Source of the DNA: Rhodanobacter sp. PCA2
GTDB lineage: Bacteria; Pseudomonadota; Gammaproteobacteria; Xanthomonadales; Rhodanobacteraceae
Direction of reading: 5' to 3'
Length of the DNA stretch: 64,000 nt
NCBI RefSeq assembly: GCF_013620825.1
Contig: NZ_NJIC01000009.1
Coordinates: 292,264 to 356,263, forward strand
A program made the position numbers and the translations under genes. The first letter of the stretch is position 1; every line of letters starts with the position of its first letter. The notes below the pieces were generated by a model that was given only the letters and a program-made list of their open reading frames with translations, made no database searches and was not told where the DNA came from. Of the stretch, positions 37,523-63,311 are shown one piece after another.

Positions 37523-37538
37523 GGTGTCCGCGGACACC
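37523..37538. promoter_or_regulatory. 16-bp palindrome: candidate activator (UAS) site
   Basis: GGTGTCCGCGGACACC is a perfect 16-bp palindrome about 80 bp upstream of a consensus sigma-54 promoter, the normal distance for an NtrC-type enhancer. A related half-site (TGTCCGC) is at 37514-37520. The likely ligand is the sigma-54 activator encoded at 59799-61133. Confidence 0.7.
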
Positions 37539-37602
37539 GAGTCCGTTGCGCTCGGTCAGTACAAGCATTTGATGTATGGAATGTTTTTCGTGCACCGACG
37601 CT

Positions 37603-37619
37603 TGGCACGCGGATTGCTG
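37603..37619 (+). promoter_or_regulatory. Sigma-54 promoter of the exporter cluster
   Basis: TTGGCAC at 37603-37609 and TTGCT at 37615-37619, with exact GG-N10-GC spacing (GG 37605-37606, GC 37617-37618), match the sigma-54 consensus TGGCAC-N5-TTGCW. Transcription would start near 37630, giving a leader of about 34 bases before the adaptor ATG at 37664. Confidence 0.85.
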
Positions 37620-37663
37620 AGCACAGGTCGGGGGCCGCACTGTCCGCGGCCAGGGAATGCACG

Positions 37664-38935
37664 ATGATCCGCGACACTTCCGCTCAAGACCGCATCGTTG
37701 AAGCCAAGCCCAACCGCAAGCGCCGCATGATGTTCGTCGGCGGCGGCGTGGCCTTGCTGGTGGTGCTGGCGTTCGCGCTGCCCGGCATCCTCCGCCTGTT
37801 CTCGGCCGACGCTTCGGTGAGCGCGTCGCGGCTGGCCTTCGCCACCGTCGAGCGCGGCCCGTTCGTGCGCGACATCGCCGCCGAGGGCAAGGTGGTGGCG
37901 GCGAACAGCCCCACGCTCTACGCCACCTACGGCGGCGCCGCGGTGCTGAAGGTGCGCGCCGGCGACGCGGTGAAGAAGGGCCAGGTGCTCGCCGTGATCG
38001 ACAGCCCCGAGCTGCGCAACAAGCTGGCGCAGGAGCAGTCCAAGGCCGATGCGATGCAGGTGGACTACCTGCAGTCGCAGGTCGACGCGCGCACCAAGCG
38101 CGGCGAACTGCAGAAGGCCTACGACAACGCGCAGATCGACGAGAAGAGCGCCGCCAACAACCTCGACCGCGAGCAGAAGGCCTACACCGCCGGCGCCTCC
38201 ACCGGCGTGGCGGTCGACAAGGCCAAGGACGACCTGGAGAAGGCGAAGATCACCCTCGCGCATGCCAAGGCCGACCTCGGCATGAGCAACGACAGCCTGA
38301 ACTTCAACATCCAGTCGAAGAAGCTGGCGCACGACAACCAGATGCTGGCGGTGCAGGACCTGAAGCGCCAGGTGGACGACCTCAACGTGAAGTCGCCGGT
38401 GGACGGCCAGGTCGGCCAGCTCTTCATCGCGCCCGTCGCCACCGTGGCGAAGGACGCGCAACTGCTCAGCGTGATCGACCTCACCGCGCTGGAAGTGGAA
38501 GTGAAGGTGCCCGAGAGCTTCGCCCGCGACCTCGCGATCGGCATGACCGGCGAGATCAGCGGCAACGGCAACACCTGGAAGGGCCTGGTCAGCGCGATCT
38601 CGCCCGAAGTGGTGAACGGCGAAGTGGCCGCCCGCGTGCGCTTCGAAGGCGCCACGCCGCAGCAGCTGCGCCAGAACCAGCGCCTGTCCGTGCGCATCCT
38701 GCTCGACAAGCGCGACAACGTGCTCACCGTGCAGCGCGGCTCCTTCGTCGACGAATCCGGCGGCAGCTACGCCTACCTGGTCAAGGACGGCATCGCCACC
38801 AAGACGCCGATCCGCGTGGGCGTCAGCAGCATCGACAAGGTCGAGATCCTGCAAGGCCTGAAGGAGGGCGACCGCATCGTGATCTCCGGCACCGACAGCT
38901 TCAAGGGCGCGCAGCGCGTGGCGATCAGTCGATAA
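37664..38935 (+). CDS. Periplasmic adaptor (HlyD/MacA-type membrane fusion protein)
   Basis: Adaptors of this family bridge an inner-membrane ABC or RND pump to a TolC channel. The 423-residue product has one N-terminal membrane anchor (about residues 23-45) and a split lipoyl domain (VLKVRAGDAVKKGQVLAVID near 90-109 and DLNVKSPVDGQVGQLF near 242-257). Between them is a long coiled-coil hairpin (about 115-235), followed by beta-barrel and membrane-proximal domains. It is the first gene of the exporter cluster, behind a sigma-54 promoter, and the only adaptor for all seven permease pairs. Confidence 0.92.
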   Translation: MIRDTSAQDRIVEAKPNRKRRMMFVGGGVALLVVLAFALPGILRLFSADASVSASRLAFATVERGPFVRDIAAEGKVVAANSPTLYATYGGAAVLKVRAGDAVKKGQVLAVIDSPELRNKLAQEQSKADAMQVDYLQSQVDARTKRGELQKAYDNAQIDEKSAANNLDREQKAYTAGASTGVAVDKAKDDLEKAKITLAHAKADLGMSNDSLNFNIQSKKLAHDNQMLAVQDLKRQVDDLNVKSPVDGQVGQLFIAPVATVAKDAQLLSVIDLTALEVEVKVPESFARDLAIGMTGEISGNGNTWKGLVSAISPEVVNGEVAARVRFEGATPQQLRQNQRLSVRILLDKRDNVLTVQRGSFVDESGGSYAYLVKDGIATKTPIRVGVSSIDKVEILQGLKEGDRIVISGTDSFKGAQRVAISR

Positions 38936-38954
38936 GGGCAGTACCCCCTCCCGA

Positions 38955-39018: not shown

Positions 39019-39744
39019 ATGCTCAAGATGACCCACCTGTCCAAGGTCTACCGCACCGAAGTGGTGGAGACCTACGCGCTGCGCGACTTCAACATCGACG
39101 TGAAGGAAGGCGAGTTCGTCGCCGTCACCGGTCCGTCCGGTTCGGGCAAGACCACCTTCCTCACCATCGCCGGCCTGCTGGAAACCTTCACCGGCGGCGA
39201 GTACCACCTCGACGGCAGCGAAGTGAGCCAGCTCAACGACAACGCGCGCTCGAAGATCCGCAACGAGAAGATCGGCTTCATCTTCCAGGCGTTCAACCTG
39301 ATTCCCGACCTCAACGTGTTCGACAACGTGGAAGTGCCGCTGCGCTACCGCGGCATGAAGGCGCCGGAGCGCAAGCAGCGCATCATGGACGCGCTGGAGC
39401 GCGTGGGTCTGGCCTCGCGCTTCAAGCACTACCCGGCCGAACTCTCCGGCGGCCAGCAGCAGCGCGTGGCGATCGCCCGCGCGCTGGCCGGCTCGCCGCG
39501 CCTGCTGCTCGCCGACGAACCCACCGGCAACCTGGACACGCAGATGGCCCGCGGCGTGCTGGAGCTGCTGGAGGAGATCCACCGCGACGGCGCCACCATC
39601 GTGATGGTGACCCACGATCCCGAACTGGCCGCGCGCGCGCAGCGCAACGTGCACATCATCGACGGCCAGGTGGTGGACCTGTCCGAGGACCCGCGCTTCC
39701 ACGCCAGCGTGGCCGCCGCGCGCGGCAACGCCAATCCGGCCTGA
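39019..39744 (+). CDS. ABC transporter ATPase (MacB/LolD type)
   Basis: This 241-residue ATPase has Walker A GPSGSGKTT (residues 38-46), a Q-loop (GFIFQAFNLIPDLNVFDNVE), the signature LSGGQQQRVAIARAL and Walker B LLLADEPTGNLD, followed by the H-loop VTHD. The LNVFDNVE and PLRYRGM segments are typical of the MacB/LolD/FtsE group, which powers FtsX-fold permeases by mechanotransmission. It is the only ATPase in the cluster, so it must serve all 14 permeases if they are active. Confidence 0.95.
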   Translation: MLKMTHLSKVYRTEVVETYALRDFNIDVKEGEFVAVTGPSGSGKTTFLTIAGLLETFTGGEYHLDGSEVSQLNDNARSKIRNEKIGFIFQAFNLIPDLNVFDNVEVPLRYRGMKAPERKQRIMDALERVGLASRFKHYPAELSGGQQQRVAIARALAGSPRLLLADEPTGNLDTQMARGVLELLEEIHRDGATIVMVTHDPELAARAQRNVHIIDGQVVDLSEDPRFHASVAAARGNANPA

Positions 39745-39779: not shown

Positions 39780-41126
39780 ATGCGTCTGAAGTTGCTGCCC
39801 GTGCTGCTCCTGCTCGCCGTCGCCCCGCTGCCGGGGCGCGCCGAGGACTTGATGGACGCCTACCGGCAGGCCGTCGCCAACGATCCCGTCCTCGCCACCG
39901 CCGACGCGCAGCGCCTGATGGTGGCCGAGGGCGTGCCGATCGCGCGGTCGGCGCTGTTGCCGCAACTGTCCGCGGGCCTGCAGCTGAACCAGATCCACAG
40001 CGGCGGCAACGGCCAGACCACCAACAGCAGCGGCAACATCATCAGCACCGCGGGCGGCGGCCACACGCGCGACCGCAACTTCACCGGCAACCTGAGCCAG
40101 TCCATCATCGACCTGTCCGCGATCGCGAACCTGCGCGCCGCGCACGCGGCCGACGATGCGCAGGAGCAGACCTACCAGGCCGCGTTGCAGAACCTGTACG
40201 TCCGTGTCGCCAACGCGTACTTCAACGTCCTGGTGTCGGAGGACATGGTGGGCATCAACCGCGCCTACGAGGACGCCTACAAGCAGGAGTACGACCAGAC
40301 CTCCACGCGCTTCAAGAACGGCCTGTCGATGGCGGCGGACGTCAGCCAGTCCAAGGCGCTGTACCTGTACATCAAGGCGCAGCGGATCGGCGCGGAGGAC
40401 AGCCTCAAGGACGCGCGCCGCGCGCTGCAGCAGATCACCGGCAAGCCGGTCGGCACGCTGTTGAAGCTGCGCGACGACCTGCCCACGGAGGCGCCGCAGC
40501 CGAACGACGAGAAGGCCTGGGTGGATGCGGCGCTGAAGACCAACCCCGCCGTGCTCGCCGCGCGCTACGCCGTCAGCAGCGACGAGCACAAGGTGTCGGC
40601 GGCGCGCGCCGGCCACCTGCCCACGCTCACCGCGGGCGTGGGCTACAACAAGTTCGGCCAGTGGTCGAACACGGCGCCGGGCACGGGCGCCTACGGACCG
40701 GCCACCACCACGGTCGGCCTCACGCTCACCGTCCCGCTGTTCAGCGGCGGGCTCACGCATGCGCGGGTGAAGCAGGCGCTCTATCAGCGCGACGCGGACG
40801 AGGGCGTGCTGGAAAGCCAGCGCCGCCAGGCCGCGCGCGACGCCGCCAACTACTTCAACCTGGTGCAGGACGGCATCGAGCAGGTAGCCAGCGCACGCGA
40901 CTCGGTGGAGGCCGCGGAGAAGACCGTGACCTCGATGCGCGCGGGCTACTCCATCGGCACGCAGTCGCTGACCAGCGTGGTGATCGCCATCCAGTACCTC
41001 GCCAACATGCAGAGCGAATACACGGTGGTGCGCCACCAGTTCATCCTCAACAAGCTGCTGCTCAAGCAGGCCGCCGGCACCATCGACATGTCCGACCTGC
41101 AGGCGGTCAACGGGTTGCTGAAATGA
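39780..41126 (+). CDS. TolC-family outer-membrane channel protein
   Basis: The 448-residue product has a Sec signal peptide (MRLKLLPVLLLLAVAPLPGR-A) and the two-fold TolC repeat of long helices and beta strands (EDLMDAYRQAVANDPVLATA ... and KTNPAVLAARYAVSSDEHKV ...). A YNKFGQWS beta segment and the conserved VTVPLFSGG-like TLTVPLFSGGLTHARVKQA follow. It forms the outer-membrane duct for the adaptor/ATPase/permease assembly. It starts 36 bp after the ATPase gene. Confidence 0.92.
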   Translation: MRLKLLPVLLLLAVAPLPGRAEDLMDAYRQAVANDPVLATADAQRLMVAEGVPIARSALLPQLSAGLQLNQIHSGGNGQTTNSSGNIISTAGGGHTRDRNFTGNLSQSIIDLSAIANLRAAHAADDAQEQTYQAALQNLYVRVANAYFNVLVSEDMVGINRAYEDAYKQEYDQTSTRFKNGLSMAADVSQSKALYLYIKAQRIGAEDSLKDARRALQQITGKPVGTLLKLRDDLPTEAPQPNDEKAWVDAALKTNPAVLAARYAVSSDEHKVSAARAGHLPTLTAGVGYNKFGQWSNTAPGTGAYGPATTTVGLTLTVPLFSGGLTHARVKQALYQRDADEGVLESQRRQAARDAANYFNLVQDGIEQVASARDSVEAAEKTVTSMRAGYSIGTQSLTSVVIAIQYLANMQSEYTVVRHQFILNKLLLKQAAGTIDMSDLQAVNGLLK

Positions 41127-41263: not shown

Positions 41264-42574
41264 GTGTTCGCCTACTACCTCCAGCTCGGCATGCGCAGCC
41301 TGCGCCGCAACCCGGCGCTCACCACGCTGATGGTGATGGCGATCGGCTTCGGCGTGGCGGCGTCGATGATCACGTATTCGGTGTTCCGCGCGGTGTCCGG
41401 CAACCCCATCCCCGACAAGTCGGGGCAGTTGTTCACGCCGCAGGTCGACGCCTGGGGGCCGCAGCAGAACCTGAAGGGCGAGCCGGCCGAGGCGCTGGGC
41501 TACGTGGACGCGATGGCGCTGATGCGCACCCTGCACGCGAAGCGCCAGACCCTGCTGTACATGGTGCAGATGTCGGTGATGCCGGACGGCGAGCGCGACC
41601 TGCCGCTGAACGCGAACGGCTACGCCGTCGGCGGCGATTTCTTCCCGATGTTCGAGGTGCCGTTCCAGTACGGCGCGGCCTGGAGCCGGCAGGACGACCA
41701 GTCCCGCGCGGCGGTGGTGGTGATCAGCGCCGAGCTCAACCAGAAGCTGTTCGGCGGCGCCGACAGCGTGGGCCGCAGCGTCGACTTCGGCGGACACGAT
41801 TACCGCATCGTGGGTGTGACCCGCCCGTGGAATCCGCGCCCGCGCTTCTTCGACCTGTTCAGCACCCAGGGCTTCGAGGAGCCCTCGGACTTCTACATGC
41901 CGTTCAACCGCGCGCTGGACCTGCAGATGCGCACCGGCGGCCGCAACAGCTGCCGCGGCAAGCTGGATTTCACCACCTGGGACGGCTGGCTGCAGAGCAA
42001 CTGCGTGTGGGTCACGCCGTGGGTGGAACTGGACAGCGCCGCGGACGTCGCGAGCTATCGCCGCTTCCTGGAAAGCTACGCCGCCGACCAGCAGAAGGCC
42101 GGCCGCTTCGACTGGGCGCCCAACGTGCGCCTGCGCAACGTGACGGAGTGGCTGGACTACGAGCACGTGGTGCCGCCGGAGAGCCGCATGTCGCTGCTGG
42201 TGTCGCTGGGCTTCTTCCTGATCTGCCTGATCAACACCGTGGGCCTGCTGCTGGCCAAGTTCCTGCGCCGCAGCGGCGAGATCGGCGTGCGCCGCGCGCT
42301 GGGCGCCACGCGGCGGGAGATCTACACGCAATACCTGATCGAGGCGGCCGCGGTGGGCCTGGCCGGCGGCCTGGTGGGCCTGCTGCTCACCGCCGCGGGC
42401 GTGTCGGGCGTGGGCCTGCTGTTCCCGCCCAAGATCGCGCAGCTGGCGGAGCTGGATTTCTCGCTGGTGGGGCTGACCCTGCTGGTGGCGGTCGTGGCGA
42501 CCCTGCTCGCGGCGTTCTATCCGGCCTGGCGCGCGGCGCGCGTGCAGCCGGCCTGGCAACTGAAGTCGAACTGA
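41264..42574 (+). CDS. FtsX/MacB-type permease, pair 1 A subunit
   Basis: The 436-residue protein has the MacB fold: TM1 (about 20-42), a periplasmic domain of some 260 residues, then TM2-TM4 (about 308-424). The MFAYYLQLGMRSLRR start and FLRRSGEIGVRRALGATRRE coupling segment define class A. The periplasmic domain has the motif DFFPMFEVPFQYGAAW and a cysteine pair C230/C247. With pair 2 it forms a sub-group (GFGVAASM in TM1, SVFRAVSGNPIP). Pair 1 B follows after 10 bp. The likely role is one half of a heterodimeric mechanotransmission exporter. Confidence 0.9.
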   Translation: MFAYYLQLGMRSLRRNPALTTLMVMAIGFGVAASMITYSVFRAVSGNPIPDKSGQLFTPQVDAWGPQQNLKGEPAEALGYVDAMALMRTLHAKRQTLLYMVQMSVMPDGERDLPLNANGYAVGGDFFPMFEVPFQYGAAWSRQDDQSRAAVVVISAELNQKLFGGADSVGRSVDFGGHDYRIVGVTRPWNPRPRFFDLFSTQGFEEPSDFYMPFNRALDLQMRTGGRNSCRGKLDFTTWDGWLQSNCVWVTPWVELDSAADVASYRRFLESYAADQQKAGRFDWAPNVRLRNVTEWLDYEHVVPPESRMSLLVSLGFFLICLINTVGLLLAKFLRRSGEIGVRRALGATRREIYTQYLIEAAAVGLAGGLVGLLLTAAGVSGVGLLFPPKIAQLAELDFSLVGLTLLVAVVATLLAAFYPAWRAARVQPAWQLKSN

Positions 42575-42584
42575 GGCGACGGCG

Positions 42585-43826
42585 ATGAGCCTGCACGTCA
42601 AACCCATCCTCGTCGCGCTGCGCCGGCACAAGGCGGGCACGCTGCTGATCGCGCTGCAGATCGCGCTGACCCTGGCGATCGTCTGCAACGCGCTGTTCAT
42701 CATCCACCAGCGCCTGTCCAGCATGGCCGAGGTCAGCGGCGTGGACGAGGCCAACGTGTTCGTGATCCGCAACCAGTGGGCGGTGATCGACCGCACCACG
42801 CAGCAGGTCGACGCCCAGGTGCGGGCCGACCTGCTCGCGCTGCGGCAGCTGCCCGGCGTGCAGGACGCCAGCGCCGCCACCGGCTATCCGCTGCAGGGCG
42901 GCGGCTGGGACAACTACGTGATGATGACGCCGGACCAGGTGGAGCCCACCACCGATTCCGCGGTGTACGTGGGCGACGAGCATTTCATCGGCACGCTGGG
43001 CCTGCGCCTGGTCGCCGGGCGCAACTTCCGTCCCGACGAAGTCGGCGTGATGGGCACCCAGGAAGCGGTCGCCCCGCCGGTGACCGTCGTGAGCAAGGCG
43101 CTGGCCGACCGGCTGTTCCCCGGCGGCGATGCGCTGGGCAAGAACATCTACGCGATGAGCGCGAAGCCCAGCACCATCATCGGCATCGTCGATCCGCTGC
43201 ACCGGCAGGGCACGTCCTCGTGGAACAAGGCCTATGCCGGGCAGTCGCTGATCTGGCCGGCGCGCCCCGACGATGCGCGCGGCGTGTTCTACATCGTGCG
43301 CGCGAAGCCGGGCCAGCTCGCCGACGCCATGCGCGAGGCGCCCAAGGCGCTGTACGCACAGAGCCGCATGCGCATCATCGACGCCAAGGACGGCATCCAG
43401 GATTACGCCGAAGTCCGTCGGCGCGCCTACGACAGCGACCGCGGCACGGCGATCCTGATGGGCATCATCTGCACCGCGCTGCTCGCGATCACCGCCGCCG
43501 GCATCGTGGGCCTCACCAGTTTCTGGGTCGGCCAGCGCCGCCGGCAGATCGGCATCCGTCGTGCGCTGGGCGCCACCCGCCACGACATCCTGGGCTACTT
43601 CCTCACCGAGAACTTCCTGATCGGCGTGGCCGGCGCGCTGGTCGGCGTGGTGCTCGCCGTGGCGATGAACCTCTGGATGATCACCCACGCCGAAATGGAA
43701 CGGATGCCGACGGTCTACGTGCTGGCCGGCGTGATCGTGCTGCTTCTGCTGGGCCAGGGCGCGACGTTCGCGCCGGCGCTGCGCGCCTCGCGCGTGCCGC
43801 CGGTGGAGGCGACGCGCCCCGTTTGA
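42585..43826 (+). CDS. FtsX/MacB-type permease, pair 1 B subunit
   Basis: Class B permease of 413 residues: short basic N-terminus with LVALRRHKAGTLLIALQIAL, TM1 near 18-38, and a periplasmic domain with LPGVQDASAATGYPL and LGLRLVAGRNFRPDE. The TM2-TM4 block contains GLTSFWVGQRRRQIGIRRAL and GATRHDILGYFLTENFLIGV. It has no periplasmic cysteine. The conserved tail is PPVEATRPV. It is probably the obligate partner of the preceding A subunit. Confidence 0.9.
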   Translation: MSLHVKPILVALRRHKAGTLLIALQIALTLAIVCNALFIIHQRLSSMAEVSGVDEANVFVIRNQWAVIDRTTQQVDAQVRADLLALRQLPGVQDASAATGYPLQGGGWDNYVMMTPDQVEPTTDSAVYVGDEHFIGTLGLRLVAGRNFRPDEVGVMGTQEAVAPPVTVVSKALADRLFPGGDALGKNIYAMSAKPSTIIGIVDPLHRQGTSSWNKAYAGQSLIWPARPDDARGVFYIVRAKPGQLADAMREAPKALYAQSRMRIIDAKDGIQDYAEVRRRAYDSDRGTAILMGIICTALLAITAAGIVGLTSFWVGQRRRQIGIRRALGATRHDILGYFLTENFLIGVAGALVGVVLAVAMNLWMITHAEMERMPTVYVLAGVIVLLLLGQGATFAPALRASRVPPVEATRPV

Positions 43827-43865
43827 CGCACCCCGCATTCCCCATTTCCTTCCCGAGGACCGACC

Positions 43866-45182
43866 ATGTTCGCCTACTACCTCGACCTGGCACTGCGCAG
43901 CCTCAAGCGCAGCCCCGGCCTCACCGCGCTGATGGTGCTGGCGATCGGCTTCGGCGTGGCCGCGTCGATGACCTCGTGGTCGGTGTTCCGCGCCGTGTCG
44001 GGCGACCCGATTCCGTGGAAGTCCGCGCAGCTGTTCGTGCCGCAGATCGACAACTGGGGCCCGAACGGCCGCAGCGCCGACGGCGACCCGCCGAACGCGA
44101 TGGACTACACCGATGCGACCGCGCTGATGCGCGACCACCGCGCCCGGCTGCAGTCGGCGATGTACCAGATCTCGCCCTCGGTGGTGCCGGCGGAGGCCAG
44201 CAAGCACCCGATCAACGTCAGCGGCCATGCGGTGTTCGGCGAGTTCTTCCCGATGCTGGACGTGCCGTTCCTGTACGGCAGCGGCTGGAGCGCCAGCGAC
44301 GATGCGAACCGCGCCCAGGTGGTGGTGATCAGCAGCAAGCTCAACGAGAAGCTGTTCGGCGGCACCAACAGCGTGGGCAAGAGCGTCAACATCGAGCGCG
44401 CCGACTACCGCGTGGTCGGCGTGCTGGACAACTGGAACCCGCAGCCGCGCTTCTACGACGTGGTCAATTCCGGCGGTTTCGACAGCGGCACCGAGGACGT
44501 GTTCCTGCCGTTCCAGACCGCGATCCAGGCGAACATCCCGAACGACGGCAACACCAACTGCAACGCGGTGCCCAAGGAACCCGGCTTCGCCGGCCTGCAG
44601 CATTCCGAGTGCGTGTGGATCGCCTTCATGGCCGAGCTGGACGACGCGGCGGCGGTGACGACCTACCGCGACTACCTGCAGGGCTACGCGCGCGAGCAGC
44701 AGCAGGCCGGGCGCTTCGCCTGGGCGCCGAACAACCGCCTGCGCAGCCTGCCGGAGTGGCTGGACAACCAGCACGTGGTGCCCAGCGACACCAAGGTCTC
44801 GCTGCTGGTGGCGCTGGGCCTGCTGCTGGTGTGCCTGGTCAACACCATCGGCCTGCTGCTGGCGAAGTTCCTGCGCCGCAGCAGCGAGATCGGCGTGCGC
44901 CGCGCGCTGGGCGCACCGCGTTCGGCGATCTACGCGCAGTTCCTCACCGAGGCCGGCATCGTCGGCGTGGCCGGCGGCGTGCTCGGCCTGCTGCTCACCT
45001 GCGCGGGCGTGGCCAGCGTGGGCTGGGTGATGCCGAAGGACATCGCCAGCCTTGCACGGCTGGACGTCTCGCTGCTGCTGCTGACCCTGCTGGTGGCCGT
45101 GGTCGCCACGATGCTGGCGGGCCTGTATCCCACCTACCGCGCCTCGCGGGTGCAGCCCGCGTGGCAACTGAAATCGAACTGA
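43866..45182 (+). CDS. FtsX/MacB-type permease, pair 2 A subunit
   Basis: Class A permease of 438 residues, closest in style to pair 1 A (MFAYYLDLALRSLKRSPGLT, GFGVAASMTSWSVFRAVSGD). The periplasmic domain has EFFPMLDVPFLYGSGW, LNEKLFGGTNSVGKSV and the cysteine pair C232/C249. The C-terminal core reads LLLAKFLRRSSEIGVRRALG and ends QPAWQLKSN, identical to pair 1 A. The gene starts 39 bp after pair 1 B. Confidence 0.9.
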   Translation: MFAYYLDLALRSLKRSPGLTALMVLAIGFGVAASMTSWSVFRAVSGDPIPWKSAQLFVPQIDNWGPNGRSADGDPPNAMDYTDATALMRDHRARLQSAMYQISPSVVPAEASKHPINVSGHAVFGEFFPMLDVPFLYGSGWSASDDANRAQVVVISSKLNEKLFGGTNSVGKSVNIERADYRVVGVLDNWNPQPRFYDVVNSGGFDSGTEDVFLPFQTAIQANIPNDGNTNCNAVPKEPGFAGLQHSECVWIAFMAELDDAAAVTTYRDYLQGYAREQQQAGRFAWAPNNRLRSLPEWLDNQHVVPSDTKVSLLVALGLLLVCLVNTIGLLLAKFLRRSSEIGVRRALGAPRSAIYAQFLTEAGIVGVAGGVLGLLLTCAGVASVGWVMPKDIASLARLDVSLLLLTLLVAVVATMLAGLYPTYRASRVQPAWQLKSN

Positions 45183-45186
45183 CCGG

Positions 45187-45284: not shown

Positions 45285-45285
45285 C

Positions 45286-46545
45286 ATGAAACTGCACCCC
45301 ATGATCGCGGCGCTGCGCAAGCACAAGGCGGGCGTGGTGCTGATCGCGCTGCAGATCGCGCTGACCCTGGCGATCGTGTGCAACGCGATCTTCATCATCG
45401 GCCAGCGCATCGACCGCGTGAACCGGCCGACCGGGCTGGACGAGGGCAACCTCTTCCTGGCCACCCAGCAGTGGGTGGGCGCGCCCAGCGCCGACACGCC
45501 CGATGGCGTGGCCAGGCTGGACGCCATGCTGAAGGAAGACCTGGCCGCACTGCGCAACCTGCCCGGCGTGGCCTCGGTGGCGCCGATCAACTCGGTGCCG
45601 CTGCTCAATTCGTCGTGGAACGGCTCGGTCTCGACCAAGCCGGACAGGAAGTTCAGCGACAAGGGCGACAACGTGCGCACCACCTACTACTTCAGCGACG
45701 AGAACGTACTTCCCGTGCTGGGCCTGCGCCTGGTGGCCGGCCGCAACTTCACCGCGGCCGACGTGCAGCACCAGGGCTTTCGCGACAACCCGCCACGCCC
45801 CATCGTCATCCTCACCAAGGACCTGGCGGACAAGCTGTACCCGAAAGGCGACGCGGTGGGCAAGGCGGTCTACATCGACGGCAGCGGCTCGCCCAGCACC
45901 ATCATCGGCGTGGTGGCGCGCCTGCAGGTGCCGGGCAGCGGCACCTGGACCAACAACTTCGCCTGGAATTCCACCCTCGTCCCGACCCGCCTGAACGCGA
46001 ACTTCTCCCGCTACGCCGTGCGCACCAAGCCCGGCCAACTGGATGCGGTGATGCGCACGGTGGCGCCCACGCTGTACAAGGTGAATCCGCTGCGCGTGCT
46101 CGACGACGACAGCGTGAAGTCGTTCGGCGACATCCGCGCCAAGGCGTACCGCGCCGACGTGGGCATGGCGATACTGATGGGCGTGATCTGCCTGGTCCTG
46201 CTCAGCGTCACCGCCGCAGGCATCGTGGGCCTCACCAGCTTCTGGGTCGGCCAGCGGCACCGCCAGATCGGCGTGCGCCGCGCGCTGGGCGCGCGCAAGG
46301 TCGACATCCTGCACTACTTCCAGCTGGAAAACCTGCTGATCGCGGGCAGCGGCGCGCTGATCGGCATCGGCATGGCGGTGGGCCTCAACCTGGCCTTGAT
46401 GCGCTACTACGAGATGGACCGCCTGCCGGTGCTCTACACCTTGATCGGCGTGATCGCGGTGCTGGTGCTGGGCCAGTGCGCCGTGTTCGTGCCCGCGCGG
46501 CGCGCGTCCAACGTGCCGCCGGTGACGGCCACCCGCGCAGTGTGA
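45286..46545 (+). CDS. FtsX/MacB-type permease, pair 2 B subunit
   Basis: Class B permease of 419 residues (MKLHPMIAALRKHKAGVVLI, ALQIALTLAIVCNAIFIIG). The periplasmic domain includes LPGVASVAPINSVPLLNSSW and LGLRLVAGRNFTAADV and has no cysteine. The coupling block is GLTSFWVGQRHRQIGVRRAL. The tail is PPVTATRAV, and a second, orphan copy of this tail follows immediately (46559-46596). It is separated from its A partner by a repeat of about 100 bp. Confidence 0.9.
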   Translation: MKLHPMIAALRKHKAGVVLIALQIALTLAIVCNAIFIIGQRIDRVNRPTGLDEGNLFLATQQWVGAPSADTPDGVARLDAMLKEDLAALRNLPGVASVAPINSVPLLNSSWNGSVSTKPDRKFSDKGDNVRTTYYFSDENVLPVLGLRLVAGRNFTAADVQHQGFRDNPPRPIVILTKDLADKLYPKGDAVGKAVYIDGSGSPSTIIGVVARLQVPGSGTWTNNFAWNSTLVPTRLNANFSRYAVRTKPGQLDAVMRTVAPTLYKVNPLRVLDDDSVKSFGDIRAKAYRADVGMAILMGVICLVLLSVTAAGIVGLTSFWVGQRHRQIGVRRALGARKVDILHYFQLENLLIAGSGALIGIGMAVGLNLALMRYYEMDRLPVLYTLIGVIAVLVLGQCAVFVPARRASNVPPVTATRAV

Positions 46546-46558
46546 GATTGCTTCACCA

Positions 46559-46596: not shown

Positions 46597-46597
46597 G

Positions 46598-54435: not shown

Positions 54436-54499
54436 GTTTCCTTCCGCCGGAACGGCGGGAGTGCGGGTGCGGGGCGGGTTTCGCAATGAGGACGATCGC

Positions 54500-55807
54500 A
54501 TGTTCGGCTACTACCTCGATCTGGCGCTGCACGGCCTGAAGCGCAACCGGGCGCTCACCGCACTGATGGTGCTGGCGATTGCGCTGGGCATCGGCGCGTC
54601 CATGACCACGCTCACCGTGTTGCACGTGCTGGCGGGCGATCCGTTGCCGGGGCGCAGCGGATCGCTCTACTACCCGCAGATCGACCCGCGCGACAGCCTG
54701 GGTTACGTGCCGGGCAAGACGGAGCCGCTGGACCAGCTGAGCTGGATCGACGGCATGAACCTGCTGCAGGCGAGGCGGGCGGACCGCCAGGCGCTGATGA
54801 CCGGCGGCAACGTGGCTATCCAGCCGGACCACAGCACGCTCGACCCGTTCTACGAGAGTGCGCGCTACACCACGGTCGATTTCTTCGCCATGTTCGGCGT
54901 GCCGTTCAAGTACGGGCATGCATGGGGCGAGGCGGACGACGCGGCGCATGCGCGCGTGGCGGTGATCAGCAGCCAGCTCAACGACAAGCTGTTCGGAGGC
55001 GGGGACAGCACGGGCAAGCCGCTGCGGCTGTCCGGTGCGATGTTTCGCGTCGTCGGAGTGATCGGCGACTGGAACCCGAATCCGCACTTCTACGACTTGA
55101 ATCGCAAGAGCTACAACGAGAATGAAGGCGTTTACCTGCCGCTGTCCACGTCGCAGGATCTTGGCATGACCCACGACGGCGGCGTCGATTGCTGGGGCAA
55201 TGGCGGCGGCGGAAATACGCCCGACCACAACTCGCCGTGCGTGTGGCTGCAGTTCTGGGTGCAGTTGGACAGTCCGGCCAAGGTCGCGGCGTACGAGGCT
55301 TTCCTCGTCGGCTACTCCAGGCAGCAGAAGGAGCTGGGGCGCTTCGGTCGGCCGCCGAACATCAAGCTGCGCGACGTCATGCAATGGCTGGATTACAACC
55401 AGGTCGTGCCGGACGACGTACGCCTGCAGAACGGCCTTGCCTTCGGCTTCCTGCTGGTGTGCCTGGTCAACACGGTGGGCCTGATGCTGGCGAAGTTCCT
55501 GCGCCGTTCCGGTGAGCTGGGCGTGCGCCGTGCGCTTGGCGCATCGAAGCGCTCGTTGTTCGCGCAATTGCTCATCGAGGCCGGCGTGGTGGGCCTGGTC
55601 GGCGGCATCGGTGGCCTGCTGCTGGCGCTGGTCGGCTTGTGGCTGGTGCGGCGGCAGCCGGCCAGCTATGCCGCATTGGCGCATCTCGACCCCACGATGC
55701 TGCTGGCCACGTTCCTGCTGGCGCTGGGCGCGAGCCTGCTGGCCGGCCTGCTGCCGGCCTGGCGCGCGTGCCAGATCGCGCCGGCGCTCCAGCTCAAGAG
55801 CAATTGA
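54500..55807 (+). CDS. FtsX/MacB-type permease, pair 6 A subunit
   Basis: Class A permease of 435 residues (MFGYYLDLALHGLKRNRALT). The periplasmic domain contains TTVDFFAMFGVPFKYGHAW, LNDKLFGGGDSTGKPL and the cysteine pair C231/C247 (DCWGNG ... SPCVW) around a glycine-rich insert. The coupling block is FLRRSGELGVRRALGASKRS. The start at 54500 gives the conserved N-terminus. The gene is 64 bp after pair 5 B and 14 bp before pair 6 B. Confidence 0.9.
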   Translation: MFGYYLDLALHGLKRNRALTALMVLAIALGIGASMTTLTVLHVLAGDPLPGRSGSLYYPQIDPRDSLGYVPGKTEPLDQLSWIDGMNLLQARRADRQALMTGGNVAIQPDHSTLDPFYESARYTTVDFFAMFGVPFKYGHAWGEADDAAHARVAVISSQLNDKLFGGGDSTGKPLRLSGAMFRVVGVIGDWNPNPHFYDLNRKSYNENEGVYLPLSTSQDLGMTHDGGVDCWGNGGGGNTPDHNSPCVWLQFWVQLDSPAKVAAYEAFLVGYSRQQKELGRFGRPPNIKLRDVMQWLDYNQVVPDDVRLQNGLAFGFLLVCLVNTVGLMLAKFLRRSGELGVRRALGASKRSLFAQLLIEAGVVGLVGGIGGLLLALVGLWLVRRQPASYAALAHLDPTMLLATFLLALGASLLAGLLPAWRACQIAPALQLKSN

Positions 55808-55821
55808 AGGAGGGCGCCATC

Positions 55822-57054
55822 ATGGAACTGCGACCGATTCTTTCCACGCTGCGCCGGCACAAGTTCACCGCGTGGCTGCTGGTGCTGGAGATCGCGCTCA
55901 CCTGCGCCATCGTGTGCAATGCCGTGTTCCTGATCAGCCAGCGGCTTCACCGCATGGACCTGCCCAGCGGCATCGCCGAGCGCGAACTGGTGCAGATCCA
56001 GCTGGGCCACATCGGCAAGAACCCCGATGCGAAGGCGCAGACCGAAACGGACCTGGCCGCGCTGCGGCAGATCGCCGGCGTGAAACAGGCGGGGCTGACG
56101 GAGGAGCTCCCGTTCAGCTTCGGCGGTTCGTCGAACAGCGGCCTGATGCTGGAACCGCGACAGCAGCAGCCCACCGTCACCGTGTCGCAGTACATGGGGC
56201 AGAACATCCTGCCCACGCTCGGGTTGCGGCTGGTGGCCGGGCGGGACTTCCAGCCGGGTGAATACGTCGACCTGGACATCGCCCTCGCGGCCCTGAAAAC
56301 CGGCGACACCAAAGGCCTGCCGCAATCCATGATCGTGACGCGGGCGCTGGCCGATCGGCTGTGGCCGGGCAAGGCCCCGCTGGGCCAGACGGCGTACGTG
56401 GGGAAAGGCATACCGCTGCGCGTCATCGGCGTGGTGGAGTCCCTGGCGCGGCCCAACATGCTGAACAAGGGGCCGCAATACACCGTGGTGTGGCCGATCC
56501 ACATGACTTCGGCCGACGGCGCGGACTACGTGCTGCGCACGGCACCGCAGGACCGCGCAGCGGTGCTGGAAGCCGCCGTGGCGAAGCTGAAGCAGATCGA
56601 CCCCAACCGGGTGGTGCTGGTGAAGCGCACCTACGACCAGGCGCGCCGCGAGTTCTTCGCCAACGACCGCGCGATGGCCGGCATCCTGGTCGGCGTGATC
56701 GTGGCGCTGCTCACGGTGACCGCGCTGGGCATCGTGGGCCTGGCCAGCTTCTGGGTGGGCCAGCGCCGCCGCAGCATCGGCGTGCGCCGTGCGCTGGGCG
56801 CCACGCGCGGCGACATCCTGCGCTACTTCCAGACCGAGAACTTCCTGCTCGCCACGCTCGGCATCGTGCTGGGCATGGTGCTCGCCTACGGCATCAACCT
56901 GTTCCTGATGCTGCATTACGAATTGCCGCGGTTGCCGGGCATCTACCTGCCGGTGGGTGCGCTGGTGCTGTGGGCGATCGGCCAACTCGCCGTGCTGGGC
57001 CCCGCGCTGCGGGCCGCGGCGGTGCCGCCGGTGGTGGCGACGCGCAGCGTGTGA
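55822..57054 (+). CDS. FtsX/MacB-type permease, pair 6 B subunit
   Basis: Class B permease of 410 residues (MELRPILSTLRRHKFTAWLL, VLEIALTCAIVCNAVFLIS). The periplasmic domain has LPSGIAERELVQIQLGHIGK and LGLRLVAGRDFQPGEYVDLD and no cysteine. The core reads GLASFWVGQRRRSIGVRRAL and GATRGDILRYFQTENFLLAT. A GGAGGG ribosome-binding site precedes the ATG. The tail is PPVVATRSV, identical to pairs 5 and 7. Confidence 0.9.
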   Translation: MELRPILSTLRRHKFTAWLLVLEIALTCAIVCNAVFLISQRLHRMDLPSGIAERELVQIQLGHIGKNPDAKAQTETDLAALRQIAGVKQAGLTEELPFSFGGSSNSGLMLEPRQQQPTVTVSQYMGQNILPTLGLRLVAGRDFQPGEYVDLDIALAALKTGDTKGLPQSMIVTRALADRLWPGKAPLGQTAYVGKGIPLRVIGVVESLARPNMLNKGPQYTVVWPIHMTSADGADYVLRTAPQDRAAVLEAAVAKLKQIDPNRVVLVKRTYDQARREFFANDRAMAGILVGVIVALLTVTALGIVGLASFWVGQRRRSIGVRRALGATRGDILRYFQTENFLLATLGIVLGMVLAYGINLFLMLHYELPRLPGIYLPVGALVLWAIGQLAVLGPALRAAAVPPVVATRSV

Positions 57055-57101
57055 GGCTCGGTCCGCTGTCCGCGGGACGGAATTCTTCAAGGAGAAACGG
57101 G

Positions 57102-58415
57102 ATGTTCGGCTACTACCTCGACCTGGCATGGCGCAGCCTGAAGCGCTCGCCGATCCTCACCGGCCTGATGGTGCTGGCGATCGGCCTTGGCATCGGCGCG
57201 TCGATGACCATGCTCACGGTGCTGCACGTGATGACGGACGATCCGCTGCCGGGGCGCAGCGCGCAGTTGTACACGCCGCATCTCGATCCGTTGCCGCTGG
57301 ATCACAAGCGTCGCGGCGACGGGCCCGATGCCAGCGACAACCTCACCTGGCCCGATGCCATGGCCTTGCTGAAGGCGCATCGCGCCACGCGACAGGCGGC
57401 GATGGCGGGCGGCTCCATGCTGGTACGCCCGGCGCGCGCCGACGTGCGACCGTTCGACGTGGATGGCCGCTACACCACGGCGGATTTCTTCCCGATGTTC
57501 GGCGTGCCGTTCCTGCGGGGCAGTGCCTGGGGCGCGGCGGACGATGCGGTCGGCGCGCGGGTGGTGGTGCTGGCCGAGAGCCTGTCGCGCAAGCTGTTCG
57601 GCGCGGACGATGCGGTGGGACGCATGGTGCGGCTTGGCGAGCACGACTACCGCGTGGTCGGCGTGACGCGGGACTGGCAGCCGTCGCCGCTGTTCTATGC
57701 CGACGCCTCGGCCAAGCGCTACAGCGATGGCGACCGGTTCTTCCTGCCGCTGTCGACCGCGGTCGACCAGAAGCTGGACGTCAACGGCAACTTCAGCAGT
57801 TGGGAAAAGAATGACGCCGACTCGCGCATGGTCAGCCCGACCACCAGCTGGCTGCAGTTCTGGGTGCAGTTGGACACCCCGCCGCAGGTGGCGGCCTATC
57901 GCCAGTACCTGGTCGATTATTCCGCGCAGCAGAAGGCGCTGGGCCGTTTCCAGCGCCCGCCAGCGAACGCGAAGCTGTACGGGCTGATGGGCTGGTTGGC
58001 GCACGAGGACCTGGTGCCGAACGACGTGCGCCTGCAACTGTGGCTGGCGCTGGGCTTCCTGTTCGTGTGCATGCTGAACATCGTGGCCCTGCTGCTGGCG
58101 AAGTTCTTGCGTCGCAGCGGCGAGATCAGCGTGCGCCGCGCGCTGGGCGCCAGGCGGCGCGACATCTTCGTGCAGCTGGGCATCGAGTCCGCGCTGATCG
58201 GCGTGGCCGGCGGCGCGCTGGGCCTGGCCATCGCCCAGCTCGGCCTGTGGAGCATCCGCCAGCGCCCCGACGACTACGCCAGGATCGCGCAAATGGACGT
58301 CCAGATGTTGTTCGGGACGCTGGCGCTGGCCATCGCCGCCAGCGTGCTTGCCGGCCTGCTGCCGGCGTGGCGCGCCTGCCGTGTGGCGCCCGCGCTGCAG
58401 TTGAAAACCATGTAG
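57102..58415 (+). CDS. FtsX/MacB-type permease, pair 7 A subunit (cysteine-less)
   Basis: Class A permease of 437 residues (MFGYYLDLAWRSLKRSPILT). It aligns with the other A subunits through TTADFFPMFGVPFLRGSAW and LQFWVQLDTPPQVAAYRQYL. At the two cysteine positions it has Ser (NFSSWEK) and Thr (SPTTSWLQ), so the putative disulfide is absent. It also departs from the consensus in TM2 (CMLNIVALLLAKF instead of C-NTVGLLLAKF) and in the coupling block (GEISVRRALGARRRD). It is the most divergent A subunit. Confidence 0.9.
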   Translation: MFGYYLDLAWRSLKRSPILTGLMVLAIGLGIGASMTMLTVLHVMTDDPLPGRSAQLYTPHLDPLPLDHKRRGDGPDASDNLTWPDAMALLKAHRATRQAAMAGGSMLVRPARADVRPFDVDGRYTTADFFPMFGVPFLRGSAWGAADDAVGARVVVLAESLSRKLFGADDAVGRMVRLGEHDYRVVGVTRDWQPSPLFYADASAKRYSDGDRFFLPLSTAVDQKLDVNGNFSSWEKNDADSRMVSPTTSWLQFWVQLDTPPQVAAYRQYLVDYSAQQKALGRFQRPPANAKLYGLMGWLAHEDLVPNDVRLQLWLALGFLFVCMLNIVALLLAKFLRRSGEISVRRALGARRRDIFVQLGIESALIGVAGGALGLAIAQLGLWSIRQRPDDYARIAQMDVQMLFGTLALAIAASVLAGLLPAWRACRVAPALQLKTM

Positions 58416-58477
58416 GAACGCGGCCTGCACGCGATGGAGCCCGCGTCGCCGGTTACGGTTACGGAGAAGACACGATC

Positions 58478-59710
58478 ATGCAAACAAGACCGATTCTTTC
58501 CACTTTGCGCCACCACAAGCTGACCGCCGGCCTGCTGATGCTGCAGGTGGCCTTCACCCTCGCCATCGTGTGCAACGTGATGCACATGATCGTCGGTCGC
58601 ATCGAGCGGATCGGCGTGCCGACCGGCATTGCCGAGAACGAGCTTGCGACGATTCCCAGCACGGCCATCGACAAGGCGGCAAACCATCGCGCGCAGCTCG
58701 CCGCCGATCTCGCCACGTTGCGCGCCGTCCCCGGCGTGCGTGCGGCGGCGGCGGTCAGCTATTCGCTGCCGCTCAACCGCAACGAAGATACCCAAGGCAT
58801 CTGCCCAAGCAAGGAGGCGCTGGATCGCGCGATCCAGCGCAATTCGATCGACGGCAGCGGCTGCATGGAACCCAGCATCTACGACGGCACCCTTGGCCTG
58901 GTCGATACCCTGGGCCTGCATCTGGTCGAAGGCCGCGATTTCCAGCAGGGAGACTACGTGGCCGACGGCAAACCGGTCGTGGCGATCGTCACCCGCGCGC
59001 TGGCGCAACACCTGTACCCCGGAAAGCCGGCGCTGGGGCAGAGCATGTACGACGGCGACCGGTTCATTCGCGTGGTCGGCATCGTCGATTCGCTGCTGCG
59101 CCCGGAGCTGCGCACGCCTGGCGTCGACAACGACAGCATGATCCTGCCGCAGGCGCCGGACGGCGCCAGCGCGCGCTATGTGTTGCGCAGCGCGCCGCAG
59201 GATCGCCAGCGCGTGCTTGCGGCGGCGACCGCCGCACTGTGGAAGGTCAACCCGAACCGCATCATCAACCCCGCGCGGGTGCAAACCTACAGCCAGATCC
59301 GCGCCGCCTACTTCCAGCGCGACACCACCATGATCGGCCTGCTCATCGCCTCCGCGCTGGGCCTGTTGTTCGTCACCGCGCTTGGCATCGCCGGGCTGGC
59401 CAACTTCTGGGTGCAGCAGCGTACGCGCAGCATCGGCATCCGCCGAGCCATCGGCGCCACGCACCACGACATCCTGCGCTACTTTCAGGACGAGAACTTC
59501 CTGATCGTCACGGCAGGCGTGGTGCCGGGCGTGCTGCTGGCCATCGGCCTGAACCTGCTGCTGATGACGCGCTACGAGTTGCCGCGCCTGCCGCTGTGGT
59601 ACCTGCCGATCGGCGCGCTGGTGCTGTGGGTGCTCGGCCAGCTTTCGGTGCTGTCGCCCGCGCTGCGCGCCGCGGCCGTGCCGCCGGTGGTGGCGACGCG
59701 CAGCGTGTGA
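58478..59710 (+). CDS. FtsX/MacB-type permease, pair 7 B subunit (with cysteine pair)
   Basis: Class B permease of 410 residues (MQTRPILSTLRHHKLTAGLL). Uniquely among the seven B subunits, its periplasmic domain has two cysteines, C109 (QGICPSKEA) and C129 (GSGCMEPS), in an insert before the LGLHLVEGRDFQQGD motif. The core is GLANFWVQQRTRSIGIRRAI and GATHHDILRYFQDENFLIVT. It closes the array 88 bp before the sigma-54 activator gene. Confidence 0.9.
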   Translation: MQTRPILSTLRHHKLTAGLLMLQVAFTLAIVCNVMHMIVGRIERIGVPTGIAENELATIPSTAIDKAANHRAQLAADLATLRAVPGVRAAAAVSYSLPLNRNEDTQGICPSKEALDRAIQRNSIDGSGCMEPSIYDGTLGLVDTLGLHLVEGRDFQQGDYVADGKPVVAIVTRALAQHLYPGKPALGQSMYDGDRFIRVVGIVDSLLRPELRTPGVDNDSMILPQAPDGASARYVLRSAPQDRQRVLAAATAALWKVNPNRIINPARVQTYSQIRAAYFQRDTTMIGLLIASALGLLFVTALGIAGLANFWVQQRTRSIGIRRAIGATHHDILRYFQDENFLIVTAGVVPGVLLAIGLNLLLMTRYELPRLPLWYLPIGALVLWVLGQLSVLSPALRAAAVPPVVATRSV

Positions 59711-59798: not shown

Positions 59799-61133
<1,335 letters not shown>

Positions 61134-61193
61134 TTGCGGTATAACTGCGGTCGGTCGTGGGCGGGATTTTCGCGGGCCGCCAGAGGAGCGGAC

Positions 61194-61502
61194 ATGAATC
61201 ATCGGATGTTGCCGGCGTGGTTCCTCTCGCTGTTTTGCGCGGGCGTTTGCGCCCAGTCCGCGGTGGCGCCGGCCGGGCAGCCTCCGCGGCTGCCGGGAGA
61301 CACGGCGTACGCGACGCCGCCCAGGGTGCAGTTCCGGTTCGGCGATGGGAACCGGGCGGACACGCGTTGGGCGCGGCAGATGGGGCAGGGCGCGGTGCGC
61401 ATGCTGGCGCAGGAGCACCGGATGGCCAACCATGCGCTGGTGCGTTACGCGCGGCCCGGCGTGGAGTGCATGGTCTCGGCCATGAAGCCCGAGTGCCCAT
61501 AG
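61194..61502 (+). CDS. Small secreted protein with C-terminal Cys pair
   Basis: The 102-residue product has a signal peptide (cleavage near GVCA-QS, residue 20) and a mature part of about 80 residues with RVQFRFGDGNRADTRWARQM. It ends in VECMVSAMKPECP, with two cysteines 9 residues apart. AGGAG lies 6 bases before the ATG. It sits between the activator and kinase genes, so it could be a signal-sensing accessory or a substrate. No family is recognised. Confidence 0.65.
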   Translation: MNHRMLPAWFLSLFCAGVCAQSAVAPAGQPPRLPGDTAYATPPRVQFRFGDGNRADTRWARQMGQGAVRMLAQEHRMANHALVRYARPGVECMVSAMKPECP

Positions 61503-61576
61503 GCGCGGGGCGCCGAGGCTGCAGGCAGCAAGTTCCGAAATCATTTCGACGCCCGATGGGCCGTCCTGGGACCGAC

Positions 61577-61903
61577 ATGCGAACACGAATCCTGGTTTCC
61601 CTTCCGCTTTGCCTGCTGGCCTTCGCGGCCGTGGCGCAGACGCCGCCCGCGTCCGACCAGTGGACGCGCCCCGCACCGGCCGGCAGCGTCACCTTCGCGA
61701 AGGACCATGTGCCGCGCAGCGACGATGCGACGGCGAAGCCCTCGCCGTTCAAGTTCAAGAGCGAGCGCAAGGCCTGGCGGGACGAACCGCCGCCGCCGCG
61801 GGCCAACGACAAGAGCGCGGTGATGGGTACCGATCGTCCGTGGCAGAACGGCCAGCCGCCGGTGAGCTGCGCGCAGACCCCGCACGATCCCGCGTGCCGC
61901 TGA
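61577..61903 (+). CDS. Small secreted proline-rich protein
   Basis: The 108-residue product has a signal peptide (MRTRILVSLPLCLLAFAAVA-Q). The charged, proline-rich mature part (SPFKFKSERKAWRDEPPPPR) looks disordered. It ends with a cysteine pair (PVSCAQTPHDPACR). It lies 10 bp before the kinase gene and is probably cotranscribed with it. No family is recognised. Like the preceding small protein it is exported and ends in two cysteines. Confidence 0.65.
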   Translation: MRTRILVSLPLCLLAFAAVAQTPPASDQWTRPAPAGSVTFAKDHVPRSDDATAKPSPFKFKSERKAWRDEPPPPRANDKSAVMGTDRPWQNGQPPVSCAQTPHDPACR

Positions 61904-61913
61904 GCCGCCGCCG

Positions 61914-63311
61914 ATGTGGCGCCGCCTGAATTCGCTGCAGGGTCGGCTCACGCTGCTGCTCGCGGTGGCCGCGGTGGCCGGCGTGCTGGTCTACGTGGGC
62001 CTGACCCAGTGGCCGCTGCCGCAGCTGATCGAGTGGTTGCACAAGGATCTGTCGATGCCGATCCGCGCGCCGGCGCAGTTCGGCATCTACGGCGCCCTCG
62101 CGCTGAGCGCGCTGGTGCTGCTGCCGCTGGCATGGTGGCTGGCGCACCTGGTGATGGCGCCGGTGAGCCGCCTGCTGCGCGCGCTGGAAGGCGCGGTGGC
62201 GAGCTACCGCGACGGCGATTTCAGCTTCTCCATCGCCGCCAACCGGCGCGACGAGCTGGGTGAGCTGATCCGCATGCACAACGCGCTGGGCCAGACCCTG
62301 CGCGAGCAGCGCCAGCACCTGGTGCAGCGCGAGTTGTTGCTGGAAACCGTGGTGCAGAACACGCCGGTGGCCCTGGTGCTCACCGACGGCAGCGGCCGCG
62401 TGGCCTATTCCAACATCGCCTCGCGCCACCTGTTCAACGAGGGCAGGAGCCTCAACGGGCAGGACTTCGCCAAAATGCTTGCCGCGGCGCCCGAGGCGCT
62501 GTCCCGCGCGGTGGAGAGCGGCGAGGATGCCTTGCTCAGCGTGGAGATGGACGGCAGCGAGGAAACCTTCCACCTGTCGCAACGCGCGTTCCGCCTGCAG
62601 GGCCGCCCGCATCGCCTGCACCTGTTCCGGCGCATGACGCGCGAGCTGTCGCGGCAGGAAGTGGCGACCTGGAAGCGGGTGATCCGCGTGATCAGCCACG
62701 AACTCAACAACTCGCTGGCGCCGATTTCCTCGCTGGCGCATTCCGGCGCCGAGCTGGCGCGCCGCGGCAACCTGGATCGGCTGCCCGGCGTGTTCGCCAC
62801 CATCAGCGAGCGCGCCAGGCACCTGCATGGTTTCATAGCCGGCTACGCCAGCTTCGCCAAGCTGCCGGCGCCGCAGCCGCATACGGTGGAATGGGAGCCG
62901 TTCCTCGCCTCGCTGGCGCTGCATTGCCATTACCGGCTTGCCGCGCCGGCGCCCACGCATCCCGCCCGCTTCGATCCGGTGCAGATCGAGCAGGTGCTGA
63001 TCAACCTGATCAAGAACGCCCACGAATCCGGCAGCCCGGAAGACGAGGTCAGCCTGGCCCTGCTGGAGGTCGGCAACGAACTGCGCATCGAAGTGGCCGA
63101 CCGCGGCCCCGGCATGAGCGAAACCGTGCTGGCGCAGGCGCTGCTGCCGTTCTATTCCACCAAGCGCTCCGGCACCGGCCTCGGCCTCGCGCTCGCGCGC
63201 GAGATCGCGGAGGCGCATGGCGGGCGGGTGCTGCTGGCCAATCGCGAGGGCGGTGGTTTGCGGGTGAGTTTGCGGTTGCCGCAGGTGGGGGACGCCAGAC
63301 GTCCTCTTTGA
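61914..63311 (+). CDS. Membrane sensor histidine kinase (NtrY/NtrB-like)
   Basis: The 465-residue kinase has two membrane segments (about 10-30 and 58-82) with only a short periplasmic loop, then HAMP and a PAS domain (LLETVVQNTPVALVLTDGSG). The H-box is RVISHELNNSLAPISSLAHS with His262, and the ATP domain has QVLINLIKNAHESG, DRGPGMSE and STKRSGTGLGLALAREIAEA. NtrB/NtrY-type kinases pair with NtrC-type regulators, so it is the partner of the activator two genes upstream. Confidence 0.93.
   Translation: MWRRLNSLQGRLTLLLAVAAVAGVLVYVGLTQWPLPQLIEWLHKDLSMPIRAPAQFGIYGALALSALVLLPLAWWLAHLVMAPVSRLLRALEGAVASYRDGDFSFSIAANRRDELGELIRMHNALGQTLREQRQHLVQRELLLETVVQNTPVALVLTDGSGRVAYSNIASRHLFNEGRSLNGQDFAKMLAAAPEALSRAVESGEDALLSVEMDGSEETFHLSQRAFRLQGRPHRLHLFRRMTRELSRQEVATWKRVIRVISHELNNSLAPISSLAHSGAELARRGNLDRLPGVFATISERARHLHGFIAGYASFAKLPAPQPHTVEWEPFLASLALHCHYRLAAPAPTHPARFDPVQIEQVLINLIKNAHESGSPEDEVSLALLEVGNELRIEVADRGPGMSETVLAQALLPFYSTKRSGTGLGLALAREIAEAHGGRVLLANREGGGLRVSLRLPQVGDARRPL

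Follow-up and report, generated by a model that had tools for sequence, protein, structure and literature searches.

Two families of ABC transporters stand close to the system described here. MacAB-TolC consists of an adaptor, a TolC channel and MacB, a homodimer in which the ATPase is fused to a four-helix permease with a periplasmic core; LolCDE, whose clients are lipoproteins, serves two different permeases with a separate, single ATPase, has one such permease pair, and is not known to use an adaptor or TolC. ADOP permeases are duplicated within one chain and are not known to have an ATPase gene nearby. In a 64-kb stretch of the Rhodanobacter sp. PCA2 genome (hereafter the window), we analysed a cluster on the + strand (37664-63311) in which an adaptor, an ABC ATPase and a TolC-type channel precede seven permease pairs, each made of an A and a B protein, followed by a regulator, a small protein and a kinase. 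This array resembles MacAB-TolC in that it combines an adaptor with an ABC ATPase and a TolC-type channel and in that its permeases have four helices and a periplasmic core of the MacB type, but its ATPase and permeases are separate genes, the permeases come as A/B pairs, and arrays hold up to 12 pairs per ATPase. It shares with LolCDE the two different permeases and the separate single ATPase, but has many pairs where LolCDE has one, and it departs from ADOP in that the two halves are separate genes and the arrays have an ATPase. We consider it probable that the array encodes a tripartite exporter of the MacB/LolCDE type whose ATPase, adaptor and channel are common to interchangeable A/B heterodimers, encoded in cis (seven here) and, in relatives, also in trans.

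The original prediction for this DNA knew of no system with such a layout. Searches of an open-access library for tandem or paralogous permeases or for a shared ATPase turned up no (AB)n exporter array, and a search of the same library on the ADOP name returned nothing relevant. We know of no earlier type VII exporter whose permease would act as an interchangeable module. An ATPase common to several ABC transporters has been described in MsmK, which energizes sugar importers (available portion of PMC4519317); MsmK serves sugar uptake, whereas the array would be a tripartite exporter with linked permeases and a common promoter signature.

The chassis and its permease pairs

The genes ahead of the pairs, which we call the chassis, comprise a periplasmic adaptor of the HlyD/MacA type (37664..38935; frame call, NCBIfam and Pfam), the sole ABC ATPase of the array (39019..39744; the same three sources plus genome comparison) and a TolC-type outer-membrane channel (39780..41126), which matches TIGR01844 above its cut-off as well as PF02321; NCBIfam and Pfam scans find one copy of each in the array. 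The permease pairs span 41264-59710, or 18.4 kb, in strict alternation: A1 (41264..42574, with a GTG start) and B1 (42585..43826); A2 (43866..45182) and B2 (45286..46545); A3 (46710..48035) and B3 (48047..49264); A4 (49311..50603) and B4 (50623..51846); A5 (51911..53221) and B5 (53218..54435), which overlaps the end of A5; A6 (54500..55807) and B6 (55822..57054); and A7 (57102..58415) and B7 (58478..59710), all on the + strand. Pairs 1 and 7 were assigned by NCBIfam, Pfam and identity comparison, and pairs 2 to 6 by identity to A1 or B1 and by the ADOP profile, with predicted structures in addition for pair 6. The architecture that had been read from the letters, one adaptor, ATPase and channel with seven alternating pairs, an activator and a kinase, is thus present in full, in the order and place given.

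What kind of permeases are these? Pfam finds both a MacB_PCD and an FtsX domain on all four permeases scanned, and genome-wide scans return 24 FtsX matches (23 over cut-off), 14 of them within the array, and 12 MacB_PCD matches within the array. The ADOP profile TIGR03434 (NCBIfam) is matched over its N half by every A protein of the array and over its C half by every B protein, at scores of 106-189 (best 189.3) that lie far under its cut-off of 622.3; a pair therefore corresponds to a duplicated permease split into two genes. The two types are distinct: the other A proteins are 43-58% identical to A1 and the B proteins 16-20%, while the other B proteins are 38-49% identical to B1. In the predicted models of A6 (mean pLDDT 80.5, pTM 0.65) and B6 (mean pLDDT 89.3, pTM 0.76), a helix at the N terminus is accompanied by four long hydrophobic ones, an alpha/beta domain of periplasmic type and a coupling helix. 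Their top fold match is MacB 5gko (TM-score by query 0.55 for A6 and 0.65 for B6), a Streptococcus MacAB-like pump and LolC/E are further close folds, and MacB chains are also the best sequence matches. Both domains, together with the predicted four-helix and coupling-helix architecture, place the permeases in the type VII ABC (MacB/FtsX/LolCE) superfamily.

The same superfamily includes proteins that act on envelope enzymes or in signalling without transporting anything, and the array permeases could be mechanotransmitters of this FtsEX- or BceAB-like sort. The weaker fold matches of the two models do include FtsX- and BceB-type folds, and the cluster carries a kinase and a regulator; the adaptor and TolC-type channel, however, point to export, and we regard this explanation as quite improbable. 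Among exporters, the array proteins scanned fall below the NCBIfam cut-offs for LolC/E and LolD. The best NCBIfam match of the array ATPase is the darobactin exporter protein DarD (256.2 bits), and the third match of the adaptor is DarC (78.8 bits), but the respective cut-offs of 375 and 450 are not reached and the cluster holds no gene for a peptide-modifying enzyme. Export of a darobactin-type ribosomally synthesized and modified peptide was rejected as a candidate, the similarity being sub-cut-off only and a search of the same open-access library turning up no arrays.

The original prediction proposed a neighbourhood survey counting the number of pairs, n. We read 31 arrays, the window's own included, in two sets (21 and 10), and found n to be 1, 2, 3, 4, 5, 6, 7, 8, 9, 11 or 12; because the same layout recurs in these 31 arrays, it is not a product of chance. 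The order is A then B throughout (permease matches with a score above 60), and each of the 30 arrays read with an adaptor has one chassis-type ATPase, defined by a score of 300 or more. Alternation is strict in 52 of 56 named permease loci, most of them read in part, with permeases ordered by domain start. In the family, 217 of 233 genomes carry A-type permeases (presence only, with seven candidates scored per genome), and so do 35 of the 41 genomes sampled, the Rhodanobacter sp. PCA2 genome included; a class-wide sample has them in 6 of 185 genomes, again counting this one, and the three outside the order have a single match each.

Some individual loci deserve mention. At L020, L023 and L067 a B permease stands inside the array without an A partner. 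A mirrored contig in G006 (L082+L083, G006:C44:55000-94999) carries array copies with identical scores, with the adaptor on contig C42; this is likely an assembly artefact, and the array was counted once. The ATPase of a nine-pair array in G001 (L072, about 3624-4400) is split over two frames, by a frameshift or a sequencing error; the last B of the G108 array has extra fragments; and at L043 and L055 another ATPase match, a weaker one, lies some 5 kb ahead of the adaptor.

Permease pairs as evolutionary units

Tandem rows of related genes can arise as dosage copies, yielding more of the same pump, and the tandem layout fits such an origin. The divergence of the copies from the first A and B proteins, given above, and the trees contradict it. 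Across 143 pairs (141 in arrays and two dispersed), the nearest relative of a pair lies outside its own array in 142, the sole exception being in G036. The eight nearest relatives of the window's first pair are all first pairs, and second pairs make up seven of the eight nearest relatives of its second pair. The pairs are thus old, distinct types kept apart, and we rejected dosage amplification, which is exceedingly improbable on both divergence and tree evidence.

The trees also show that A and B of one pair evolve together as a unit. Their tree distances correlate at 0.90 over the 143 pairs, as against at most 0.14 when partners are shuffled within arrays and 0.21 when each B is compared with the A of the following pair. 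The median gap between matched domains is 17 bp within a pair (A to B) and 88.5 bp between one pair and the next (B to A).

Conservation is unevenly distributed along both proteins. Measured over the 143 pairs as mean majority frequency in blocks of 20, it reaches 0.78-0.84 in A and 0.83-0.84 in B around the coupling helix, and 0.92 in the last ten residues of B; the minima, 0.33 in A and 0.32 in B, fall in periplasmic stretches. Conserved parts that are predicted to face the ATPase, combined with variable periplasmic parts, fit a common ATPase with diverse clients. The idea in the original prediction that the permease pair sets specificity finds partial backing in this contrast and in the old types having been kept apart.

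A predicted sigma-54 signature shared with dispersed pairs and tiny peptides

Downstream of the pairs lie the genes of a probable switch. An NtrC-type sigma-54 activating response regulator (59799..61133, + strand, alternative start 59784) carries PF00072, PF00158 and PF02954 and, as read from the sequence, a GAYTGA loop; a sensor kinase (61914..63311, + strand) has HAMP and HATPase domains by Pfam and, again by reading, two hydrophobic helices with a short loop between them. The genome encodes sigma-54. Upstream of the adaptor gene, a 12-bp palindrome, TGTCCGCGGACA (37525..37536, + strand), is the predicted binding site of the regulator (upstream activating sequence, UAS) and the only perfect copy in the window. 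It lies 78 bp upstream of a predicted sigma-54 promoter, whose -24/-12 elements TGGCACGCGGATTGCT (37603..37618, + strand) have no mismatch; the window contains no other match. Judged within the window alone, this match lacks significance (about 3 expected at one mismatch or fewer, 1 found), and its weight comes from conservation, the promoter being present at 28 of 30 chassis; the palindrome likewise precedes the chassis of most relatives. The palindrome is repeated, with one mismatch, at 37641-37652, immediately ahead of the adaptor start, and the half TGTCCGCGG recurs at about -23 in many relatives.

Palindrome and promoter, taken together as a composite site with up to three mismatches in all, occur before 26 of 30 chassis and before 18 of 60 A genes outside the chassis, in 18 different orphan blocks, but before none of 173 A genes inside arrays. 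The corresponding letter shuffles gave 1/600, 0/1200 and 1/3460, and segments drawn at random from these loci, with the true sites left in, gave 32/5160. Genome-wide, the composite pattern has 59 sites in 22 of the 41 genomes, and the reversed pattern none. These sites precede 31 peptide genes, 22 chassis adaptors (17 by reading the loci, five placed by coordinates), two dispersed pairs, two hydrolases, one protease and one unclear frame. The genome of Rhodanobacter sp. PCA2 has three: the array, a pair of peptides beside trmL (contig C61, outside the window; trmL recognised by reading) and a peptide of 29 residues (C59). The exporter, some dispersed pairs and the tiny peptides are therefore predicted, from this shared promoter signature, to form one regulon. 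The site before a chassis-type adaptor in G027 (L259/L293), from another family of the order, is the only one of the 59 outside the family.

The hydrolase and protease sites bring in a different explanation, namely that the system defends the envelope against membrane-active peptides from outside: the kinase would sense damage at the membrane, the pairs would extrude many different peptides or shield against them, and the tiny peptides and occasional secreted peptidases would protect. Two secreted, prolyl-aminopeptidase-like hydrolases and a trypsin-like protease, so named by reading their sequences, lie under the same site in relatives; the kinase exposes just a short loop outside the membrane; and cells that express MacAB are more resistant to colistin and bacitracin (available portion of PMC5985334). 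Peptidases, however, account for 3 of the 59 sites and for none of the three in the window's own genome, and we hold this alternative to be possible though rather unlikely. The protease or hydrolase genes at L266, L281 and L289, whose products are secreted, stand directly under the composite site in other genera.

The peptides themselves form a family of small proteins, with a match to it 40-61 bp downstream of 31 of the 59 sites. They have 28-72 residues and a conserved N-terminal hydrophobic helix, to which most of the longer ones add a two-cysteine tail that the shortest lack, and they are probably bound to the membrane. None of the 15 scanned has a credible match in Pfam or NCBIfam (best E 0.046 and 0.065). 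A protein search returned 495 relatives; among the matches listed (120 of 495), those with a name are hypothetical proteins, and most come from Rhodanobacter, Dyella, Frateuria and Fulvimonas. At E 0.01, peptides were found in 20 of 41 genomes, with 44 of 53 matches under a composite site, and in none of 16 genomes outside the family. They occur in 18 of 24 genomes with at least two A matches versus 2 of 17 others, relatedness being ignored, and over all 25 family genomes their number correlates with pair number at rho 0.39 (p 0.053). The idea of one pair per peptide was dropped, as a test of counts gave it no support. The peptides are likely to be partners or clients of the permeases: a role as membrane partners is suggested because the helix is conserved and the tail dispensable, and a role as cargo because of the exporter setting.

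Two other reading frames in these surroundings may be recorded. Between regulator and kinase, the frame at 61577..61903 (+ strand) encodes a small, probably secreted protein with a signal-like start and a C-terminal C-x8-C tail that recurs in many relatives; it has no family match in NCBIfam or Pfam, and the spacing of its tail resembles that of the longer tiny peptides, possibly by coincidence. Downstream of the 29-residue peptide, L239:2968-3402 encodes a short protein that by eye could pass for a TonB-dependent receptor's N-terminal domain, and in L245 a similar frame comes after the peptide. Rfam and tRNA scans of the 64-kb window gave no matches.

One ATPase, probably shared by many pairs

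Seven pairs beside one ATPase raise the question of which ATPase the pairs use, and the dispersed pairs raise it again. Fifty-three dispersed blocks (58 pairs) have neither an adaptor nor a chassis-type ATPase within the stretches fetched around them (13-30 kb each), and in this they may resemble ADOP permeases; a few of these stretches hold weaker ATPase matches (scores 44-149). Two more dispersed blocks have a chassis-type ATPase and lack an adaptor in their fetched stretches. In G108, a one-contig genome, a six-pair array coexists with six dispersed pairs. The chassis signature of palindrome and sigma-54 promoter is found at 18 of the 53 blocks.

Other ATPases of the MacB/LolD type might drive most pairs, the array then being a store of permeases held together by shared regulation. 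The genome has 32 further ATPase matches, nine of them at 40-47% identity to the array ATPase, and three at 40% or more, C17, C19 and C33, have no FtsX-type permease neighbour. Six of the nine, however, lie within 3 kb of an FtsX-type permease of their own, and each array with an adaptor keeps one chassis-type ATPase; we therefore consider this rival decidedly unlikely. The shared chassis of the original prediction thus stands in part. One ATPase per array, the six ATPases beside their own permeases and the dispersed pairs with the chassis promoter signature support it, while the prediction had counted ATPases dedicated to individual pairs elsewhere as evidence against sharing, and C17, C19 and C33 stay candidates for this.

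How might an exporter with interchangeable permeases work? The regulator and kinase would switch on the regulon marked by the palindrome and sigma-54 promoter, and A and B would dock on the shared ATPase through their conserved cytoplasmic faces. The variable periplasmic domain of each pair may then select its client, a hydrophobic molecule or a peptide, on the outer side of the inner membrane, and ATP-driven mechanotransmission would push it through adaptor and channel; the tiny peptides may be clients of the permeases or their small partners in the membrane. In the available portion of PMC5985334, pumps of the MacB type expel clients from the periplasm by way of adaptor and TolC and do not move them across the inner membrane, and LolCDE and YbbAP pull molecules out of the membrane (available portions of PMC8333309 and PMC12646458).

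Several points weigh against this account. The use of the array ATPase by any pair, its sharing among pairs and the substrates of the pairs are inferred. Besides the three ATPases without a permease neighbour, 35 of the 53 dispersed blocks lack the composite site, and conserved cytoplasmic with variable periplasmic parts may be a general pattern in the superfamily. A channel gene lies beside the chassis in just 12 of 21 arrays of the first set and 1 of 10 of the second, as searched with a single-sequence profile. Four of the 56 named loci are irregular, three with a lone B and one with a broken unit. No peptide match was found in the array genomes G004 (n 5), G020 (n 2) and G036 (n 4, of another family), and in the 20 genomes of the family that hold two or more pairs, the number of peptides does not track that of pairs (rho 0.08).

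A published phenotype in the same genus may be related. In Rhodanobacter R179, dssA encodes an ABC permease and belongs to an operon with 17 genes, and its loss weakens the suppression of a plant immune response (available portion of PMC11928319). The array likewise counts 3 + 14 = 17 genes before the regulator, and the dssA operon may be this array, a guess by gene number and genus only; the portion of that paper available to us mentions neither an array of permeases nor a shared ATPase or a promoter signature. A more far-reaching proposal would make the array a genome-wide plug-in exporter for up to about 15 linked and dispersed pairs, with the sigma-54-wired peptides as its natural cargo, and this export the dss system through which these root commensals calm plant immunity. 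We think it unlikely; the supernatant of a dssAB mutant retains suppressive activity (PMC11928319, same portion), which counts against it.

The shared promoter signature makes cargo and partners testable by simple gene removals, and should the array prove to be the dssA operon, it would offer a candidate mechanism for the plant-immunity phenotype. Bacteria of the Rhodanobacter family are predicted to carry an exporter base with a row of 1-12 different permease pairs, many of them with extra pairs scattered elsewhere in the genome. If true, this would be the first type VII exporter known to us with a plug-in permease, and it would make clear how permeases that lack an ATPase gene of their own can work.

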